Assembly: GCF_011250645.1 (NCBI RefSeq)
Contig: NZ_JAANNO010000002.1
Span: forward strand, 267,506 to 331,505
Length of the DNA stretch: 64,000 bases
DNA from: Motilibacter aurantiacus
Lineage (GTDB): Bacteria; Actinomycetota; Actinomycetes; Motilibacterales; Motilibacteraceae
Reading direction: 5' to 3'
The notes beneath the pieces are model-generated. The model worked only from the letters and a program-made list of their open reading frames with translations, was not told the DNA's origin and made no database searches. Numbering within the stretch: the stretch's first letter is position 1; each line of letters starts with the position of its first letter. Positions 39,182 through 47,506 of this stretch are shown here, one piece after another. The translations under genes were made by a program, and so were the position numbers.

Positions 39182-40081
39182 TCAGCCGACGCCGAGCGGC
39201 ACCGGGCCCCGGGAGGGCACCGCCCGAGGCGGACGCGGCCGCGGGGAGCCGGGCGAGCCCGGGCGCGGCGGGCCGACGGCCACCGTGACGGGGACCGGGA
39301 CGGAGCCGGCCCCCGGGCCGGGCAGGCGCACGGTCACCGGCGCGGTGGAGCCCCCCTCCAGGGGCAGGACCGCCGCACCGTCCCAACCGGACAGCTCCTC
39401 CCACGCGAGCCGCCCGCGGCCGCCGTTCTGGTGCGGGTCGACGCGCCGGGAGGCCTCGGCGACCGGGGTGCCCGGGGGCCCGACGACGAGCAGTGCCCGG
39501 CCGAACACAGGCGTCGGCAGGATCACCGCCCACCCGGCGGGGCCGGAGCGCGTGGGGCGCAGCGTCGTCCGCGACCAGCGCCCCCGCGAGGGCTGGTACG
39601 CAACGACGCCCTTGCCTGCCGGCGGGCCGGGCTCGACCGCGAGCAGCGCCTTGGTCCCCGCCACGGTGCCGGCCCAGACGAGGACCGTCCCCGGCTCGTC
39701 GGCGAGCAGCGCCTCCGCCTCCCGGGCGGACGGCGAGCCGGGCGCCGCGAGCGCGCCGGACAGGTCCCCGCGCAGCGGCCATTCGCGGACGGGCAGCAGC
39801 GACGGGTCGCTGGGGCCGGTCCGGGTCGACCGTGCGTCGCGCTCGTCCCCACCGGCCAGGTCGGCCAGCACAGCCGCGCCCAGCAGCGCGACGACCAGTG
39901 CGGCGGCCGCCTGCCGGGCGAGCCGGGCCCGCCGCGAGGGAACGTCCCCGCCCCGGCCGGCCGGGCCGCCGGCCAGCTCGTCGGGCGACGGGACGGGGCC
40001 CGGCTCGCCCTCCTCGCGGACCGGGCCCACGGCGCCGAACCGCGCGCCGCCGGCCGAGGCTGCGGCGCGCCTGCCCCTCAC
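39182..40081 (-). CDS. Unknown single-span membrane protein of the VWA operon
   Basis: A 299-residue protein I do not recognise. After a basic N-terminus of about 60 residues there is one hydrophobic span (AAAALVVALLGAAVLADLAG), then an exterior domain of about 150 residues with beta-type alternation (GTVLVWAGTVAGTKALLAVEP, AVILPTPVFGRALLVVGPPG) and a Pro/Gly/Arg-rich end. Topology is N-in/C-out by the positive-inside rule. GTG 40079-40081 overlaps the VWA gene stop as GTGA. Last gene of the four-gene unit 43303-39182; function unknown. Confidence 0.65.
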   Translation of the reverse strand: MRGRRAAASAGGARFGAVGPVREEGEPGPVPSPDELAGGPAGRGGDVPSRRARLARQAAAALVVALLGAAVLADLAGGDERDARSTRTGPSDPSLLPVREWPLRGDLSGALAAPGSPSAREAEALLADEPGTVLVWAGTVAGTKALLAVEPGPPAGKGVVAYQPSRGRWSRTTLRPTRSGPAGWAVILPTPVFGRALLVVGPPGTPVAEASRRVDPHQNGGRGRLAWEELSGWDGAAVLPLEGGSTAPVTVRLPGPGAGSVPVPVTVAVGPPRPGSPGSPRPRPPRAVPSRGPVPLGVG

Positions 40082-41034
40082 GCGTCCACGGAGTCCGACG
40101 GGCGCGACGGCGACGGGCTCGGCGCAGCGGGGGCTCCGCCGGTGGGGGCCGGCGCGGGCGTCGCCCCGCGAGGCGCCTGCTGCCCGGGAGCGGGGGCCGC
40201 GGGAGCGCCCGGGGCCGCCGGAGCTGACGGGCTCGACGGCGCGGACGGGGCCGCGGGCGGCGCGCCCGCCAGACGCTGCCCGGTCAGCCCGGCGATCACC
40301 CGGGCGTACGTCAGCCCGATGTCGGCGGCGCTCGAGATGGGCGTCACGTGCACGTCGGCGAGCTCGGGGCTCTCGAGCACCGGGGAGCGCTCCGGCCCCT
40401 TGGGGTTGAGCACCCAGGTCTGGGTGATGCCCGCGGCCGCGAGGGCCGCGTCGAGCTCGGCCGGGTCGTCCTGGAACTCCCCGTCGCTGATGGCGAGCAG
40501 CGCGGTGGCCGCGCAGGACCGGCCGTCGAACGCAGCGCCCAGCGCGTCCGCGGCGGTCCGGGCGACGGTCTGCCCGGTGCCGACGGCCACCTCGCCGGGC
40601 GCGAGGGCGGGCGCGCTGCCCACCGGCGTGGGCGCCAGCGTCAGCAGCGCCTCGTCGGTGAACACCGCGAGCGCCACCTCGTCGTCGCCGGGGAGGTTCT
40701 GCCGCAGCCAGGGCAGCAGCTCGTCGGTCGCCTGCCGCCGGATGGGCTCGACCTGGTCCATCGAGGAGGAGGTGTCGCTGGCGATGGCGATGCAGAGCCG
40801 CCCGTCGAGGGTGCGCTCCCCCTCGAGGTACGTCCCGCCCAGCGCGCCGGGGCCGGCGGCCGCCGCCTGCGGGGCCGGGTCGTCCTCGAGCAGCTGCGGG
40901 ACGCCCCACCCGGCGAGGGCCGCGAGCGGGACCAGCAGGAGCAGCAGCGGCACTCTGCGGTCGCTCGGCAGGCCCGGGTAGCGCGCGCCGGGAAAGCTCG
41001 GCCGGGTCGGGATCCCCCGGCGCCAGATCGGCAT
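40078..41034 (-). CDS. Membrane-anchored von Willebrand factor A-domain protein
   Basis: A 318-residue protein: one N-terminal transmembrane helix (VPLLLLLVPLAALAGWGVP), then a VWA-type fold. The MIDAS metal motif is visible as DTSSSM (DxSxS) at about residue 90, a second loop at the AATALLAISDGE strand supplies the late Asp, and VALAVFTDEALLTL fits a core strand. The last 70 residues are an Ala/Pro/Ser-rich tail, probably wall-spanning or a linker. ATG 41032-41034 shares one base with the previous stop (TGATG). VWA domains usually mediate metal-dependent protein contacts; the partner is unknown. Confidence 0.75.
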   Translation of the reverse strand: MPIWRRGIPTRPSFPGARYPGLPSDRRVPLLLLLVPLAALAGWGVPQLLEDDPAPQAAAAGPGALGGTYLEGERTLDGRLCIAIASDTSSSMDQVEPIRRQATDELLPWLRQNLPGDDEVALAVFTDEALLTLAPTPVGSAPALAPGEVAVGTGQTVARTAADALGAAFDGRSCAATALLAISDGEFQDDPAELDAALAAAGITQTWVLNPKGPERSPVLESPELADVHVTPISSAADIGLTYARVIAGLTGQRLAGAPPAAPSAPSSPSAPAAPGAPAAPAPGQQAPRGATPAPAPTGGAPAAPSPSPSRPSDSVDA

Positions 41035-42482
41035 CAGGCCCCCGTGTCGCGCTCGCCGGAGGCGGCCCGGTCGACGTCGCGCTCGGCGCGCGGCGGCTGC
41101 GGCCGCTCGGCCTTCGGCCGGCCCAGATGTCCGCGCACGGTGCGCAGCAGCTCGGTCCGCAGGTCGATGACCTGCCCGTCCTCGACCGGCGGCCGGCGCT
41201 CCTCCCAGGGACGGGTGCTGCTGGCGGCCCGGCGCGGGCTGTCCTCGTCGCGCGAGGTCGGCATCGGGGCCTCCGGCGCCTGCAGCAGCTCCTCGACGGG
41301 AGCCGCGTAGACCGGCGCCCGCACCTCGGCGTAGTCGAAGATGCCGCTGTCGTCCGGGGAGGCCTTGTAGGCGTCGAGCAGGCCCTTGACCCGGCCGAGC
41401 TGTCCGCGCGCCGCGCGCCAGTCCTGGTGGGCCTGGACCTGCGCCTGCCGCTTGCCGGACAGCCGCTCGGCCTTGGCGTGCCGCCGCAGGGCGCCGGTCA
41501 GCACCCGCTGGGCGGCCCGGTCGCGCCGCTCGGCGCGCTCGAACTCGGCGGCCTTCGGGACGGCCTGGTACGCGGCCAGCCCCGCCGCCCCGGCCAGCTC
41601 GGCCAGGACGAGCCCGCCGAACATCAGCGCCGAGGAGAGCCGGGAGGTGTCGTCGTCGAGCGGCTCGAAGGCGCCGACGGCCATGCCCTTGAGGCTGACG
41701 CCCACGACGAGGCCGATCGCGGCCAGCACCAGGGTCGGCAGCACGGCACGGGCGAAGACGGTCCGCTTGCGCCGGGCCAGCCCCTCGACGTCGCCCCCGC
41801 CCGCCGACAGCCAGCCGGACACGAGCAGCTTGGTGCCGATGACGAACACCGGCGCGAAACCGATGGGCAGCAGGTACGACTCCAGCGGCGGCACGTCAGC
41901 CACCGCGAGGATCTGGTTGATCGTGAAGTAGCTCGCCGCCATGAGCAGCGCGGTGAAGAACAGCGACGTCACCGGCCGCATCGGTCGGACTACCGTCGGC
42001 GTCTCCAGCAGCTGCTGGCGGCGCTCCTGCGCCTCGGCCGTGGCCCGCAGCAGGGCGAGCTCGGTGTGCGCGGCGGCCTTGGCCGCGGTGGCGGCTCGGG
42101 TCAGCCGGCGGATGTCCGGCCGGGTGAGCATGGAGCCGTGGATGCTGCGGCCGAGGCCGCCGGCCAGCCGGATCGCCGCCGACTTGGTCAGCGGCGGCTG
42201 GCCGCCGGGCTTGCGCAGGCCGACGCCGGGCCGCCCGGCAGGGCCGCTGGCCGGGCCGCCGTAGGCGCCGTTGGCCGGGCCGCCGTAGGGCGCTGTGCCG
42301 GGCGCTGTGCCGGGCGCCGTGCCGGGCGCCGTGCCGGGCGCTGAGCCGGGGCCGGGGTACGGCCCGCCGACGGGCGCCCCGCGCGGCGGGACGGCGCCCG
42401 CGCGCGGGTCCGGAGGCGCGAAGCCCCGTGGGTCGTACGGGCCGCGGTCGCCCCGGCTCCGGGCCGTGCCGTCGTCACTCAC
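41034..42482 (-). CDS. Multi-span membrane protein with Pro/Gly-rich repeat N-terminus
   Basis: A 482-residue protein not recognised. Residues 1-90 are Pro/Gly/Ala-rich and include four GTAP units. Residues 105-165 are a charged helix (TRAATAAKAAAHTELALLRA). Four hydrophobic spans follow (LFFTALLMAASYFTINQIL, YLLPIGFAPVFVIGTKLLV, VLPTLVLAAIGLVVGVSL, LMFGGLVLAELAGAAGLAAY). The rest is a cytosolic, strongly charged helical region (AEFERAERRDRAAQRVL) with a disordered tail. Central gene of the VWA operon, likely the membrane platform. ATG 42482 follows a short gap of 41 bases after the lipoprotein gene. Confidence 0.65.
   Translation of the reverse strand: MSDDGTARSRGDRGPYDPRGFAPPDPRAGAVPPRGAPVGGPYPGPGSAPGTAPGTAPGTAPGTAPYGGPANGAYGGPASGPAGRPGVGLRKPGGQPPLTKSAAIRLAGGLGRSIHGSMLTRPDIRRLTRAATAAKAAAHTELALLRATAEAQERRQQLLETPTVVRPMRPVTSLFFTALLMAASYFTINQILAVADVPPLESYLLPIGFAPVFVIGTKLLVSGWLSAGGGDVEGLARRKRTVFARAVLPTLVLAAIGLVVGVSLKGMAVGAFEPLDDDTSRLSSALMFGGLVLAELAGAAGLAAYQAVPKAAEFERAERRDRAAQRVLTGALRRHAKAERLSGKRQAQVQAHQDWRAARGQLGRVKGLLDAYKASPDDSGIFDYAEVRAPVYAAPVEELLQAPEAPMPTSRDEDSPRRAASSTRPWEERRPPVEDGQVIDLRTELLRTVRGHLGRPKAERPQPPRAERDVDRAASGERDTGA
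42289..42348. repeat. Five tandem 12-base repeats within a coding region
   Basis: Five copies of GGCGCYGTGCCG-type units (last copy GGCGCTGAGCCG) encode the GTAP repeats near the N-terminus of the multi-span protein. The copies are nearly identical, so copy number may vary by slippage without a frameshift. Confidence 0.85.
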
Positions 42483-42523
42483 GAGGCGGTCCTCCTACGC
42501 AAAGGGTCGGGGCGGGCGGGAGG

Positions 42524-43303
42524 TCAGACGTAGGACTGGCTGGACACCTCGGGCGACGGGACGCCCGAGCCGCGCAGCCACTCGGCCCACTCGTCGATGG
42601 TCTTGGCGGTGCGCTCGGTCGTCCAGGGGGCGCCGTCGACCGCCCCGATGCCGTGCATCTGCACGCCGCTGAACGCGGACAGGTCGACCTTCACGGCCTG
42701 CTCGGGCAGGCCCGCTCCGTCGGTCAGCATGACCGCGTCGCGCGGGGAGCCGTCCGGGGCGAGCGGGGTGCTCTGCGCGACCGCGAGCCAGCCGCCGACG
42801 ATGCTGGTGCCGGGGGCGGACGGGGCCGGCTGGGCGCGCGCCGCCGTGAGCTGCGTCCAGAGCTCGGCCGCAGCCTGCTGGGCCACGTAGCGCTGCTTCT
42901 GCGCCAGGGCGGCCTCGTTGTTGTGCGCCGGCAGCAGGTTCGAGCACGCGAACACGGTCTGCGCCCCGGACGCGGTGCCGGTGAAAGTGATCACGCGCAG
43001 CGCCCGCGACTGCTCGACGGCGTTCGCGACCACGGCCTCGATCTGCGGCTTGATGCGGGCCTCGGCGGACGTGGAGTTCCAGTACGACCCGGACTGGTCG
43101 ATGGCGACGGTGATCTCGCCCTTCGCCGCCTCGTCGGCCGTGAGCAGGGGCTCGAGCCTGTCCGGGCAGGCACCGGTCCCCGCCGCCGCGGCGGCCGGCG
43201 CGTCGCCACCGCCGTCGGGCCCACCGCCGTCGGAGCCGCCGCAGCCGGCGACGGCGAGCCCGGCGAGCAGCACCAGGGGCAGCCCTCGGCGCTTGAGGAT
43301 CAT
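42524..43303 (-). CDS. VWA-like lipoprotein
   Basis: A 259-residue lipoprotein: signal MILKRRGLPLVLLAGLAVAGC with lipobox LAVAGC (Cys 21), then a Gly/Ala/Pro linker. The globular part has the three MIDAS elements of a VWA domain: DQSGS at about residue 70, the Thr of APGTSIVGG, and the Asp of VMLTDGAG. An extra segment ALRVITFTGTASGAQTVFACS forms a core strand. ATG 43301-43303 has a GGAGG site 7 bases upstream; the longer frame would bury the signal peptide. First gene of the four-gene operon; expected on the outer face of the membrane. Function unknown. Confidence 0.75.
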   Translation of the reverse strand: MILKRRGLPLVLLAGLAVAGCGGSDGGGPDGGGDAPAAAAAGTGACPDRLEPLLTADEAAKGEITVAIDQSGSYWNSTSAEARIKPQIEAVVANAVEQSRALRVITFTGTASGAQTVFACSNLLPAHNNEAALAQKQRYVAQQAAAELWTQLTAARAQPAPSAPGTSIVGGWLAVAQSTPLAPDGSPRDAVMLTDGAGLPEQAVKVDLSAFSGVQMHGIGAVDGAPWTTERTAKTIDEWAEWLRGSGVPSPEVSSQSYV

Positions 43304-43507
43304 GCAAGGACCTCCGAGGTCGAACTTCCGAGCAACAGGGACCGGTCCCGGCACCCCGGGACGCCACCGCCAGGACGAAAGCCCCTCTTCAGGCTACGTC
43401 GCCGCGTCGACAACCGCCCTTTTCCCGATCGGGTGGAGATCGACGATCCCCGCCGGCCTCGAAAGTCAGCAGAAAAGCGGAGCCGGCCTGCCCGGCTGCT
43501 CGGCGCC

Positions 43508-44221
43508 TCATTCGGCGCGCAGCCGGACGTGCTCGCGCACCCGTGCGTCGAGCCGGGCCGCGTGGGCGCCGCGCCAGTAGACGCGTGCGCACTCCGAGCA
43601 CCGGGAGAACTCCTCCTGGGTGCGTCGCGTTCCGGGCTCGAGGCGGTCGAGGACGTCGCCCTTGGCCACCGGGGCAAGAGCCCCGTTGCAGACCGTGCAG
43701 CGGGTGTAGGGCTCGAGCGGTAGCCCGAAACGGTCGAGCACGTCCGCGAGCTGCTCGTCGGGCCGCGCCCCGCGCACGTACGCCGCGCGTCGCAGCGCCC
43801 GCCGGCGCAGCAGCCCGCGGTCCTGGGTGAGCAGCAGCCGGTCCTCCGCGCCGGCCTGCGCGACGAGCGCCGGGTCGTCCGCGTCGTTGGCGTACGCCGC
43901 GTCCACCCCCAGCAGCCGTAGCCGCCGCGCGAGCGCTCCGAGGTGCACGTCGAGCAGCAGCCGGGGCGGGCCCTCGAGCGGCTGCGGCCGCGGACGGGCG
44001 AGGACCTCCACCTCGTCGCCCGCGGCCAGCCGCCGCCCGGGCGGGGCCGGCATGCCGGCCAGCCGGAGCTCCCCCACCTCGGTGAGGGGCACCCCGGCGG
44101 CCTGCACCGCGTGCCCCAGCGAGGCGGTGGGGTCGGCCGCCACGTCCACGTCGACCATCCCGGCCCGGGCCCGCGCGGGCAGGAAGAGCCGCAGGGCCGG
44201 GGTGACGAGCAGGCGGGCCAC
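43508..44221 (-). CDS. Ubiquitin/MoaD-fold plus Mut7-C PIN-type RNase domain protein
   Basis: A 237-residue protein with two parts. Residues 1-80 look like a ubiquitin/ThiS-type beta-grasp domain (LRLFLPARARAGMVDVDV, ending in an AAGDEVEVLARP strand). Residues 85-237 are a Mut7-C domain: LLLDVHLGALARRLRLLGVDAAYAND (PIN-like acidic start), LLLTQDRGLLRRR, and a zinc ribbon CTVC...CSEC. This Ub-Mut7C architecture is known from actinobacterial genomes and is thought to act in RNA metabolism. GTG 44219-44221 chosen as the first start before the conserved beta strand, 11 bases after the dehydrogenase stop. Confidence 0.82.
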   Translation of the reverse strand: MARLLVTPALRLFLPARARAGMVDVDVAADPTASLGHAVQAAGVPLTEVGELRLAGMPAPPGRRLAAGDEVEVLARPRPQPLEGPPRLLLDVHLGALARRLRLLGVDAAYANDADDPALVAQAGAEDRLLLTQDRGLLRRRALRRAAYVRGARPDEQLADVLDRFGLPLEPYTRCTVCNGALAPVAKGDVLDRLEPGTRRTQEEFSRCSECARVYWRGAHAARLDARVREHVRLRAE

Positions 44222-44232
44222 CGGCGGCGGGG

Positions 44233-45132
44233 TCAGTACTGGCCGGAGATGACGTTGCGCAGCGGCCGGCCGTCGGCCCAGCGGGCCAGCTGGTCCGAGA
44301 CCAGCGCGCGGGCACGCGGCCCCATGGCGGCCGTGCCGCCGCCGACGTGCGGGGTGAGCAGGAGGCCGGGCGCCTCCCACAGCGGGTGGCCGGGCGGGAG
44401 CGGCTCGGGGTCCGTGACGTCGAGCGCGGCCCGCAGCCGGCGGCTCGAGAGCTCGGCCAGCAGGGCGCCCGTGTCGACCACCGGGCCGCGGGCCATGTTG
44501 ACCAGCAGGGCCCCGTCCTTCATCCGCCGCAGCATCGCCGCGTCGACGAGCCCGCGGGTGGCCTCGGTCAGCGGCACCAGCACCACCACCGCGTCGGCCA
44601 GCGGCAGCAGCTCCGGCAGCCGGCCCAGGTCCGCGACGCCCTCCCGGGCCCGGCGTGCGACACGCAGCACGTCGACCTCGAAGCCGGCCAGCCGCCGCTC
44701 GACCGCCTCGCCGATCGCGCCGTACCCGAGGATCAGGACCGTGCGGTCGGCGAGCCCGAGGGTCGACGTGGGCTCCCACCGCCCGGCCGCCTGGCTGTGG
44801 ACGTACGCCGGCAGGTCGCGCTGAGCGGCGAGCAGGAGCGCGACCGCCAGCTCGGCCGTCGACGCGTCGTGCACGCCCCGGGCGTTGCACAGGGTCACGT
44901 CCTCGGGCACCAGCCCGCGCACCCCCTCGACGCCGGCGCTGAGCGTCTGCACGACCCGCAGGCGCGGCATGTGCGCCAGCAGGGACAGCCCCTCGGTGCC
45001 GCGGCCGTAGGGCAGGACGTAGAACTCCACGTCCTCCAGGCCCGTCGACGGCGGAGGAGCGTCCGCGCCCCACACCTGCGCGTCGACGCCGGGCGGGACG
45101 TCCACGCCGGACAGGCTGAGCAGTGCGCGCAT
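44233..45132 (-). CDS. D-2-hydroxyacid dehydrogenase family protein
   Basis: A 299-residue NAD(P)-dependent D-isomer 2-hydroxyacid dehydrogenase: VQTLSAGVEGVRGLVP, CNARGVHDASTAELAVALLL, dinucleotide motif VLILGYGAIGEAVERRLAGF, VVLVPLTEATRGLV, LVNMARGPVVDTGAL, and the catalytic region DVTDPEPLPPGHPLW...LTPHVGG with the His. The N-terminal domain is short for the family. Substrate not known. ATG at 45130-45132; divergent from the sugar dehydrogenase pair. Confidence 0.88.
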   Translation of the reverse strand: MRALLSLSGVDVPPGVDAQVWGADAPPPSTGLEDVEFYVLPYGRGTEGLSLLAHMPRLRVVQTLSAGVEGVRGLVPEDVTLCNARGVHDASTAELAVALLLAAQRDLPAYVHSQAAGRWEPTSTLGLADRTVLILGYGAIGEAVERRLAGFEVDVLRVARRAREGVADLGRLPELLPLADAVVVLVPLTEATRGLVDAAMLRRMKDGALLVNMARGPVVDTGALLAELSSRRLRAALDVTDPEPLPPGHPLWEAPGLLLTPHVGGGTAAMGPRARALVSDQLARWADGRPLRNVISGQY

Positions 45133-45191
45133 GGGGGGGACGCTACCCAGGTGACGGTTGGACAGCGGAGAGCGACGGGTACAGGCCCGGC

Positions 45192-46283
45192 ATGCGCCTT
45201 CCCCCTCCCGTGCGTGCCCCGCTGGCCGGCGCCCTCGCCGCCGGCCTCGCGCTCCCGCTGACCGCGGCGACGCCCGCGGCCGCCGGCCCGGCCGCGCCCG
45301 CCCGCCCTGCCGCGGTCGCCGCGTCGGCCACCGTGACGGGGACGGTGGCGACCGGCCTCGCCAGCCCGTGGGGGCTCGCGATCCTTCCCGACGGGTCGGC
45401 GGTCGTCTCCTCGCGGGACGAGGGGACCGTCTGGCGCGTCCCGCGCGGCGGGGGCGAGCCGCGGCGCGTCGGGTCGGTGCCGGGGTCCGTGCACTCCGGC
45501 GAGGGCGGGCTGCTCGGCCTGGCGCTGCACCCCGGCTACCCGCGGCAGCCCTGGCTGTACGCCTACACGACGACCGCCTCGGACAACCGCATCGTGCGGA
45601 TGCGGTTCGACGGCAGCAGTCTCGGCGCCACCCAGGTCGTGCTGCGCGGGATCGGGAAGGCCGGGAACCACAACGGCGGCCGGATCGCGTTCGGCCCCGA
45701 CGGGATGCTCTACGCCGGCACCGGTGATGCAGGGGCGCCTTCCCGTTCACAGAACCGTAGTTCACTGAATGGCAAGATCCTGCGCATGACGCCGACGGGT
45801 GGGGTGCCGGCGGGCAACCCGTTCCGGGGCTCGCTCGTGTGGAGCCTGGGACACCGCAACGTCCAGGGCCTGGCCTGGGACTCCCGAGGCCGGATGTGGG
45901 CATCGGAGTTCGGTCAGAACACCTGGGACGAGCTCAACCGCATCGTCAAGGGGAAGAACTACGGCTGGCCGAGGGTCGAGGGCCGGGCCGGGCGGCGCGG
46001 CTTCGTCGACCCGGTGGCGCAGTGGAGCCCCGCCGTCGCCTCCCCGTCCGGCATCACCGTGGCCGCGGGAGCCGTGTGGGTCGCCTCGCTGCGCGGGCAG
46101 CGGCTCTGGCGGGTCCCGGTCGGCGGCGGCACGCCGCGTGCCTACTTCGCCGGGACGTACGGCCGGCTGCGCGCCGTCGCCGTGGCACCCGGGGGCCGGC
46201 TGTTTCTCATGACGAACAACACCGACGGCCGCATCGCCCCGCGCTCCGGCGACGACCGCCTGCTGCGCGTCAAGGTGACGTGA
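45192..46283 (+). CDS. Secreted PQQ-type sugar dehydrogenase (GDH/sorbosone dehydrogenase family)
   Basis: A 363-residue six-bladed beta-propeller with a Sec-type signal (LAGALAAGLALPLTAATPAAA). Family signatures: LASPWGLAILPDGSAVVSSRD, EGGLLGLALHPGYPRQPWLYAY, NHNGGRIAFGPDGMLYAGTGDAG, NGKILRMTPTG, WSLGHRNVQGLAWDSRGRMWASEFG and ELNRIVKGKNYGWP. These are the PQQ/Ca-binding and active-site (His) blocks of soluble aldose dehydrogenases, though many actinobacteria lack PQQ synthesis, so cofactor use is uncertain. ATG 45192. Followed by a paralogue. Confidence 0.88.
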   Translation: MRLPPPVRAPLAGALAAGLALPLTAATPAAAGPAAPARPAAVAASATVTGTVATGLASPWGLAILPDGSAVVSSRDEGTVWRVPRGGGEPRRVGSVPGSVHSGEGGLLGLALHPGYPRQPWLYAYTTTASDNRIVRMRFDGSSLGATQVVLRGIGKAGNHNGGRIAFGPDGMLYAGTGDAGAPSRSQNRSSLNGKILRMTPTGGVPAGNPFRGSLVWSLGHRNVQGLAWDSRGRMWASEFGQNTWDELNRIVKGKNYGWPRVEGRAGRRGFVDPVAQWSPAVASPSGITVAAGAVWVASLRGQRLWRVPVGGGTPRAYFAGTYGRLRAVAVAPGGRLFLMTNNTDGRIAPRSGDDRLLRVKVT

Positions 46284-46339
46284 GAGTTCCGTGACATAGC
46301 TCGCGGTGTCACGACCGTGCCGCCGGGTAGGCGCGCCTC

Positions 46340-47506
46340 ATGAGCCGACGCCGCCGCGACGTACGAGCCCTGACCGCCTTCACCGCGCTCGCCCTGACGC
46401 TCTGCGCGTGCGGTGGCTCGGGCGACGAGGACGAGGCGGCGCCGGTACCGGCCGCGTCACCCCCCGGGTCGTCCGAGCCGACGTCCGAGCAGAGCACGCC
46501 GGCCGCGGCCCCCTCCGCCACGGCACCCGGCCCGGACGCGCGCGCCACCGTCACCAACACGCTCGCGACCGGGCTGGACACGCCGTGGGGCATCGCGTTC
46601 CTGCCCGACGGGTCGGCGCTCGTGTCGCTGCGGGACAGCGGGGAGGTCGTGCGGGTGCCCGCCCAGGGCGGGGACGTCGAGCAGGTCGGCGAGGTCCCGG
46701 GAGTCTCCTCGGGCGGGACCGCGGAGGGCGGCCTGCTCGGGATCGCGCTGCACCCGGACTACCCGAGCCAGCCGTGGCTCTACGCCTACTACACGACCGG
46801 CGACGAGAACGTCCTGTCCCGGATGCGCTACACCGACGGCGCCCTCGGCAGGCCGCAGGAGCTGCTGGACGGGGTCGACGCCGCGGCCTACCACAACGGC
46901 GGGCGCATCGGGTTCGGCCCGGACGGCATGCTGTACGTCGCGACCGGGGACGGCACCGACCGCGACAGCGCCCAGGACCCCGACGACACGAACGGCAAGA
47001 TCCTGCGGCTCACGCCCGAGGGCGAGCCCGCGCCGGACAACCCCACGCGCGGGTCCGCGGTCTACAGCTCCGGCCACCGCAACATCGAGGGCATCGCCTG
47101 GGACGAGGCGGGGCAGCTGTGGGCCAGCGAGTTCGGCGACCAGACGTGGGACGAGCTCAACCGGATCGAGCCGGGCGCGAACTACGGCTGGCCGCAGCAG
47201 GAGGGCGAGGGCGGCGGGTCCGGGCTCGTCGACCCGTTCGTCCAGTGGTCGACCGACGAGGCCTCCCCCGCGGGCGTCGCGATCACCGGCGGCGCCGCCT
47301 ACGTCGCCTCGCTGCGCGGAGAGCGGCTGTGGCAGGTCCCGCTCGACGGCGGCGAGCCCAGGGCGCTGTTCACCGGCGACCACGGCCGGCTGCGGACCGT
47401 CGTGCTCGCCCCCGACGGGAGCCTCTGGCTGACGACGAGCAACAACGACGGCCGCGGCAACCCCGGAGTGGACGACGACCGCATCCTGCGGGTCACGCTG
47501 TCCTAG
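46340..47506 (+). CDS. PQQ-type sugar dehydrogenase paralogue, lipoprotein
   Basis: A 388-residue paralogue of the preceding gene, but anchored: signal MSRRRRDVRALTAFTALALT with lipobox TLCAC, then a 50-residue Pro/Ser/Ala linker. The same blocks are present: LDTPWGIAFLPDGSALVSLRD, EGGLLGIALHPDYPSQPWLYAY, YHNGGRIGFGPDGMLYVATGDG, NGKILRLTPEG, SGHRNIEGIAWDEAGQLWASEFG, NRIEPGANYGWP. The tandem pair gives a soluble and a membrane-bound version. Start ATG 46340, 57 bases after the first stop. Confidence 0.88.
   Translation: MSRRRRDVRALTAFTALALTLCACGGSGDEDEAAPVPAASPPGSSEPTSEQSTPAAAPSATAPGPDARATVTNTLATGLDTPWGIAFLPDGSALVSLRDSGEVVRVPAQGGDVEQVGEVPGVSSGGTAEGGLLGIALHPDYPSQPWLYAYYTTGDENVLSRMRYTDGALGRPQELLDGVDAAAYHNGGRIGFGPDGMLYVATGDGTDRDSAQDPDDTNGKILRLTPEGEPAPDNPTRGSAVYSSGHRNIEGIAWDEAGQLWASEFGDQTWDELNRIEPGANYGWPQQEGEGGGSGLVDPFVQWSTDEASPAGVAITGGAAYVASLRGERLWQVPLDGGEPRALFTGDHGRLRTVVLAPDGSLWLTTSNNDGRGNPGVDDDRILRVTLS

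Follow-up and report, generated by a model that had tools for sequence, protein, structure and literature searches.

A four-gene Motilibacter operon encoding two VWA proteins, with a three-gene core seen in a second lineage

We analyzed a 64,000-nucleotide stretch of the Motilibacter aurantiacus genome (hereafter, the window), in which a compact operon encodes two VWA proteins with MIDAS residues, a membrane protein and a fourth protein found only in Motilibacter (Table 1). The first three genes, g1, g2 and g3, form a tightly packed core that is seen in two lineages. In our best reading, the set is a variant of extracytoplasmic VWA systems, so far undescribed in the libraries and literature that we searched. 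Extracytoplasmic VWA proteins are common in bacteria, and their partners are mostly unknown. The minimal set of one platform protein and two VWA proteins, kept together across distant lineages and either wholly present or wholly absent, offers a clean system for finding out what the MIDAS domains of bacteria bind and whether these domains pass a signal into the cell.

Operon layout and genomic site

Table 1. Features of the operon and its upstream region (window positions).
Feature	Position	Strand	Description
g1	42524-43303	-	VWA lipoprotein, full MIDAS pattern; ATG start after GGAGG
g2	41034-42482	-	Probable four-span membrane protein; GTG start
g3	40078-41034	-	Membrane-anchored VWA protein, N-terminal single span
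g4	39182-40081	-	Single-span protein, ~200 outward residues, no known family
Intergenic stretch before g1	43304-43507	-	Terminator-like pattern, blocks kept in M. deserti, GGAGG
12-base tandem repeats in 5′ part of g2	42276-42359	-	No counterpart in M. deserti

The four genes run leftward from 43303 to 39182 as one tightly packed unit, and their junctions read exactly as the first-pass annotation had claimed: a 41-base gap separates g1 from g2, g2 and g3 overlap by 1 base (TGATG), and g3 and g4 overlap by 4 bases (GTGA), an arrangement that may couple their translation. Third-position GC lies between 0.95 and 0.97 in g1-g4, and dN/dS against M. deserti is 0.19 for g1, 0.12 for g2, 0.22 for g3 and 0.37 for g4, suggesting that all four are real genes. 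The comparison with M. deserti further indicates that the four genes are under purifying selection, with the strongest constraint on g2 (92% identity) and the weakest on g4; the flanking ilvD and Mut7-C genes gave dN/dS values of 0.09 and 0.28, respectively.

The block is flanked by housekeeping genes and sits inside an amino-acid region. By Pfam, the flanks include ilvB, ilvD, Mut7-C, 2-hydroxyacid dehydrogenase, GSDH and ferritin genes, and a GGDEF product is also among the neighbors; two further reading frames are presumably ilvN and ilvC. In M. deserti (NZ_JAANNP010000002.1), the whole block is found at the corresponding site, with the Mut7-C gene on one side and ilvD on the other. A terminator-like pattern occurs right after the Mut7-C gene and before g1 (two further such patterns fall within genes), blocks before g1 are conserved in M. 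deserti, including the GGAGG ahead of the ATG, and ilvD has its own conserved upstream block, which together suggest that the operon probably forms a transcription unit of its own. Conservation between the two species points to a likely promoter for the operon in the stretch before g1 (43304-43507), where no match to the sigma-70 consensus was found.

The same junction differs in related genera. In another genus of the same family (G002), the dehydrogenase and ilvD genes are spaced by ~80 bases (78 when counted from the stop codon to the nearest ATG in frame), and neither Mut7-C nor g1-g4 is present between them. A further genus (G003) carries one long opposite-strand reading frame at the site (L075:9773-11773), which shows no similarity to g1-g4 and resembles what we take to be a TolB-like and fibronectin-like secreted protein, suggesting that the junction may take in accessory genes. 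Genome searches found no full-length g1, g2, g3 or g4 in G002, G003 or G004; the last gave weak partial matches only, involving the start of the lipoprotein or generic VWA proteins. We conclude that the block is accessory; either its gain in Motilibacter or its loss from related genera would fit.

The Mut7-C RNase gene that precedes the operon (window 43508-44221) encodes a protein whose N terminus carries a ubiquitin-like domain (Pfam PF01927, PF14451). This gene shares the operon's presence and absence at the site, being missing from the dehydrogenase-ilvD junction in both G002 and G003. Elsewhere in the flank, window 45123-47506 holds a pair of neighboring genes, similar to each other, that encode secreted dehydrogenases of the GSDH type (the first of the pair was found by the Pfam scan), followed by the ferritin gene.

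Two VWA proteins, a membrane protein and g4

The lipoprotein encoded by g1 has the lipobox LAVAGC and the MIDAS residues D69-Q-S71-G-S73, T166 (in GTSIV) and D195 (in TDG). The MIDAS positions are kept in all three aligned copies, with S71 replaced by Thr in L023 (the locus outside Motilibacter that is described below), and the lipobox cysteine, Cys46 and Cys120 are conserved in the same 3/3 copies. By sequence, g1 has no Pfam match, and a profile search found no convincing solved relative. An AlphaFold2 model made from three sequences (mean pLDDT 47) was compared with the PDB by Foldseek, giving a best E of 2.2e-5 and the Bat-type protein 4jdu as top match. The best 50 of 586 matches were VWA or I-domain entries or proteins with such a domain. 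In VIA, the top row was a GATOR1-KICSTOR chain (Z 10.9), and the vWFA2 domain of collagen VII aligned over 153 residues (Z 10.1, rmsd 3.6). Comparison with viral structures (BFVD) again returned VWA-type proteins, a result that we gave no weight. Together with the motifs, this low-confidence model supports the presence of a VWA domain in g1, in agreement with the earlier assignment of a lipoprotein with a full MIDAS pattern. A similarity to mitochondrial OSCP (E 0.016) was taken as helix composition.

The second VWA protein, g3, carries D87-T-S89-S-S91 and D184 (in SDGE), and the aspartate and serines of the DxSxS motif and Asp184 are invariant in all four aligned rows. Its MIDAS Thr is T153 or T156: one alignment gives T153, and the four-row alignment gives T156 in three of its rows and a position shifted by one residue in the remaining row. 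Each of the four copies has one N-terminal span with basic residues ahead of it. When the four-row profile was compared with the PDB, it matched BatB (3ibs) at 1.5e-8 and the Bat-type protein 4jdu at 1.5e-7. These matches and the conserved span bear out the membrane-anchored VWA protein (DTSSSM) that had been proposed, and by profile g3 appears to be of the Bat type. The L023 copy matches Pfam VWA_2 at 2.3e-4, which is under the curated cut-off, and the window copy has no Pfam match. A Pro/Ala-rich tail is present only in the two Motilibacter copies and absent from L023. Between g1 and g3, no similarity was detectable by comparison of their profiles, both of which are shallow.

The product of g2 defines a family of membrane proteins for which neither Pfam nor NCBIfam has a model. 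It had been described as a four-span protein with a repeat N terminus. The repeat is there and the four spans are probable, but a simple hydropathy cut-off is exceeded by three spans per protein, a different three in the two lineages. The fourth span comes from combining the alignment, a low-confidence model and the loop charges, the loop after span 2 being basic. The model has helices at 102-116, 124-159, 170-194, 204-225, 236-270, 278-340 and 345-374; its mean pLDDT is 42, with only ~311-370 averaging 65 or more, so it does not establish the fold. Taken together, these data suggest that g2 probably has four spans, with the N and C termini inside and a long helical cytosolic part after span 4. 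The N terminus is proline-rich and variable, and its PGTA-type repeats, which are encoded by 12-base tandem DNA units, have no counterpart in M. deserti, indicating that the repeat is not essential.

As annotated, g4 encodes a single-span protein of no known family. The span is N-terminal, and the window copy has a second, weaker hydrophobic stretch that is absent from the M. deserti copy. Among 60 relatives searched, g4 had no homologue outside Motilibacter, and it had no match in L023, where the gene after g3 runs the opposite way. The gene is thus a local addition, found only in Motilibacter. Kelch-like matches in the PDB, to designed Kelch proteins, covered ~30 residues, with no stretch passing alone, and were set aside.

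Recurrence of the three-gene core

A profile search with g1 found one full-length relative beyond the genus (E 1.1e-19), in genome G223 of another family (f18). The 7.8-kb contig that carries it (L023) encodes counterparts of all three core proteins (the VWA lipoprotein, the membrane protein and the anchored VWA protein) in the window's order, and both of its core junctions are 4-base stop-start overlaps. Identities to the window proteins are 32% for g1, 31% for g2 and 37% for g3. Searched by tblastn against this contig, the three gave E values of 8e-20, 2e-14 and 4e-23, each pair being significant alone. The MIDAS aspartates and the cysteine pairs are common to the two lineages. As the lipoprotein abuts the contig start, the start codon and upstream region of L023 g1 lie beyond the established sequence. 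Conservation outside close relatives, which the first-pass annotation had left to be checked for all four genes, was therefore found for g1-g2-g3, in one genome of another family, and not for g4.

On the opposite strand of L023, within ~2 kb downstream of the core, lies a frame with TIR (below the Pfam cut-off) and WD40 domains (L023:4770-6521). It may be interrupted, since a WD40-like reading goes on in other frames past the stop.

Full-length g1 was found in 1/35 genomes of family f18 and in 1/396 genomes phylum-wide, the latter being the window's own (M. deserti and G223 were not among the matches). Among 393 genomes of the class, three had full-length g2 (the window's own, M. deserti and G223), and the same three had full-length g3, each at more than 390 bits. 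The other 58 of the 61 genomes that matched g3 scored at most 38.1 bits and were dropped, judged by score, as generic VWA proteins or chance. These presence counts are lower bounds, since most searches scored few candidates per genome (as few as 6 in the class searches for g2 and g3, and all in the 35-genome family search), and the searches overlap in genomes. A scan of public genome contigs from 84,980 species with two short g2 peptide patterns, which reaches close relatives only, yielded 46 pattern matches and one relative, M. deserti.

For g1, only full-length matches were kept (the window's own, M. deserti and G223). We dropped N-terminal-only matches as lipoprotein-signal matches in 3/5 cases (5/60 genomes), 8/11 cases (11/296) and 9/11 cases (11/245). 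Three loci that were inspected (L008, L010 and L015) read as solute-binding lipoproteins, and the remaining partial g1 matches were judged by the stretch matched. One g1 match with two internal stops (G355, 20.7 bits) was judged chance, and at a g2 match in G666 (20.6 bits) the reading frames bear no resemblance to g2.

Phages gave no relative of g2 or g3, and viral contigs gave none of g1, g2 or g3. Plasmid records had no match for g1 or g2 (window and L023 copies), for L023 g3 or for g4. The window g3 has a solo relative (29% identity) at L035:13758-14552, on the conjugative plasmid pYYL1.1 of Rhodococcus ruber, and this relative had no match in any other plasmid record. The two share the anchored VWA protein, including a C-terminal TGQ-L motif. 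They differ in that the 28.5 kb analyzed around the plasmid copy contains none of g1, g2 and g4 at detectable similarity, and in that transposase genes follow this copy. The lack of detectable g1 or g2 suggests that g3 can exist outside the trio.

Relation to known systems and candidate functions

The set matches no named system in the libraries searched (Pfam, NCBIfam, PADLOC and PHROGs), as had been supposed at the outset. No window protein or tested homologue reached a curated cut-off in Pfam or NCBIfam. PADLOC returned 0 families at E 5 for the four window proteins and a single match for four homologues (g2 of L023, E 0.024), and PHROGs returned a single match for the window proteins (E 0.19); neither match is significant. 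A literature search with thin coverage of subscription papers found no description of this gene set.

Like g3, BatA and BatB (Bacteroides aerotolerance) and Borrelia BB0172 and BB0173 are membrane-anchored extracytoplasmic VWA proteins with a DxSxS MIDAS. To our knowledge, g2 has no Bat counterpart, and g1 is a lipoprotein, unlike the Bat, BB0172 and BB0173 proteins. Bat systems are described with an adjacent MoxR ATPase, and the spans of BB0173 are placed at residues 7-25, 57-77 and 310-328, so that the VWA domain lies between spans on both sides (PMC5700661); in contrast, g3 has one span before the VWA domain and none after. We recognized no MoxR ATPase, DUF58 or BatD gene at 32.4-48.1 kb (seven genes by Pfam, the others by reading). 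The MoxR-VWA ternary and GAP1-N2 conflict systems likewise have VWA proteins in actinobacterial accessory operons, and some GAP1-N2 neighborhoods contain a pair of VWA genes, in firmicutes, or encode a VWA protein bound to the membrane, in actinobacteria (PMC7159879). Compared with the systems as described there, the window VWA proteins are small, with no fused effector domain seen, and no MoxR, GTPase, tubulin, FNIII, GAP1 or VMAP gene was recognized in the operon or the neighborhood read.

We hypothesize that the products of g1, g2 and g3 assemble into a single complex of the cell envelope, which would bind a ligand on the outer side of the membrane, and we put the probability of this at roughly one half. 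The shared gene order and stop-start overlaps, the homology of all three proteins in the two lineages and the strong constraint on g2 speak for it; against it, the core is seen in one genome beyond Motilibacter, g3 also occurs solo on the Rhodococcus plasmid, and the models of g1 and g2 are weak. In such a complex, g1 would be lipid-tethered and g3 held by its one span, both turning a metal-binding (MIDAS) VWA face outward. The g2 protein would be the platform, with four spans, the last of which continues into a long helical hairpin in the cytosol; this hairpin could relay a ligand-bound state to the inside or serve to hold partners there. The two dissimilar VWA domains could capture a ligand jointly or bind each other's partner, and g4 would be an outward add-on peculiar to Motilibacter. 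A surface complex with two outward VWA domains on one platform had been proposed from the start; its outward topology (signals and spans) and both VWA assignments stood, and the complex itself keeps the even odds given above. A bolder version, which we regard as rather unlikely, is a so far undescribed, mobile three-protein actinobacterial envelope machine, in which two dissimilar outward MIDAS-VWA domains (one on a lipid tether, one on a span) would jointly act on a four-span transducer and serve contact-dependent sensing or conflict without a MoxR-type ATPase.

Envelope stress and secretion, both raised in the first-pass annotation, gained no evidence. What we gained for phage defense, raised with them, is circumstantial (patchy occurrence and the TIR-WD40 gene near the core in L023), and PADLOC gave no match of note. 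Framed as a conflict or anti-phage module, in which VWA sensors facing outward or lying in the membrane would be coupled to a membrane effector with four spans, this idea draws on the patchy distribution, on the site that lacks the block in one related genus (G002) and holds a different reading frame in another (G003), on the TIR-WD40 frame within ~2 kb on the other strand in L023, and on the g3 homologue of the conjugative Rhodococcus plasmid, which has a CHAT-domain gene ~9 kb away. We nevertheless consider such a module unlikely, as PADLOC found none for the four window proteins and only E 0.024 for one of four homologues, no known effector domain was seen, viral contigs held no g1, g2 or g3 relatives and phages none of g2 or g3, and the block lies within a housekeeping amino-acid region.

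Less likely still is a Bat-like envelope protein-maturation system, in which the VWA proteins would aid the assembly or stability of other membrane proteins. Both VWA proteins lean toward it, g3 being nearest by profile to BatB and a Bat-type protein and g1 having Bat-type 4jdu as its top Foldseek match, but no MoxR ATPase, DUF58 or BatD was recognized among the neighbors, and g3 is without the span after the VWA domain that is described for BB0173 (PMC5700661). We give the lowest weight to an adhesin or attachment complex on the cell surface that, like VWA pilins, would act on other cells or external surfaces. Among the VIA rows of g1 are two streptococcal pilus proteins with VWA domains, PilB (Z 10.0) and PitA (Z 9.7), but equal Z values are reached between VWA folds and many unrelated proteins; the Pro/Ala-rich tail of g3 could span the cell wall but is missing from the distant copy (L023).

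Apart from these readings of the operon, the pYYL1.1 record is annotated with NYN, CHAT, TPR, MBL-fold and CHAP genes in the stretch that precedes the lone g3 homologue (L035:1-14552), and these genes might be an accessory or conflict cluster.
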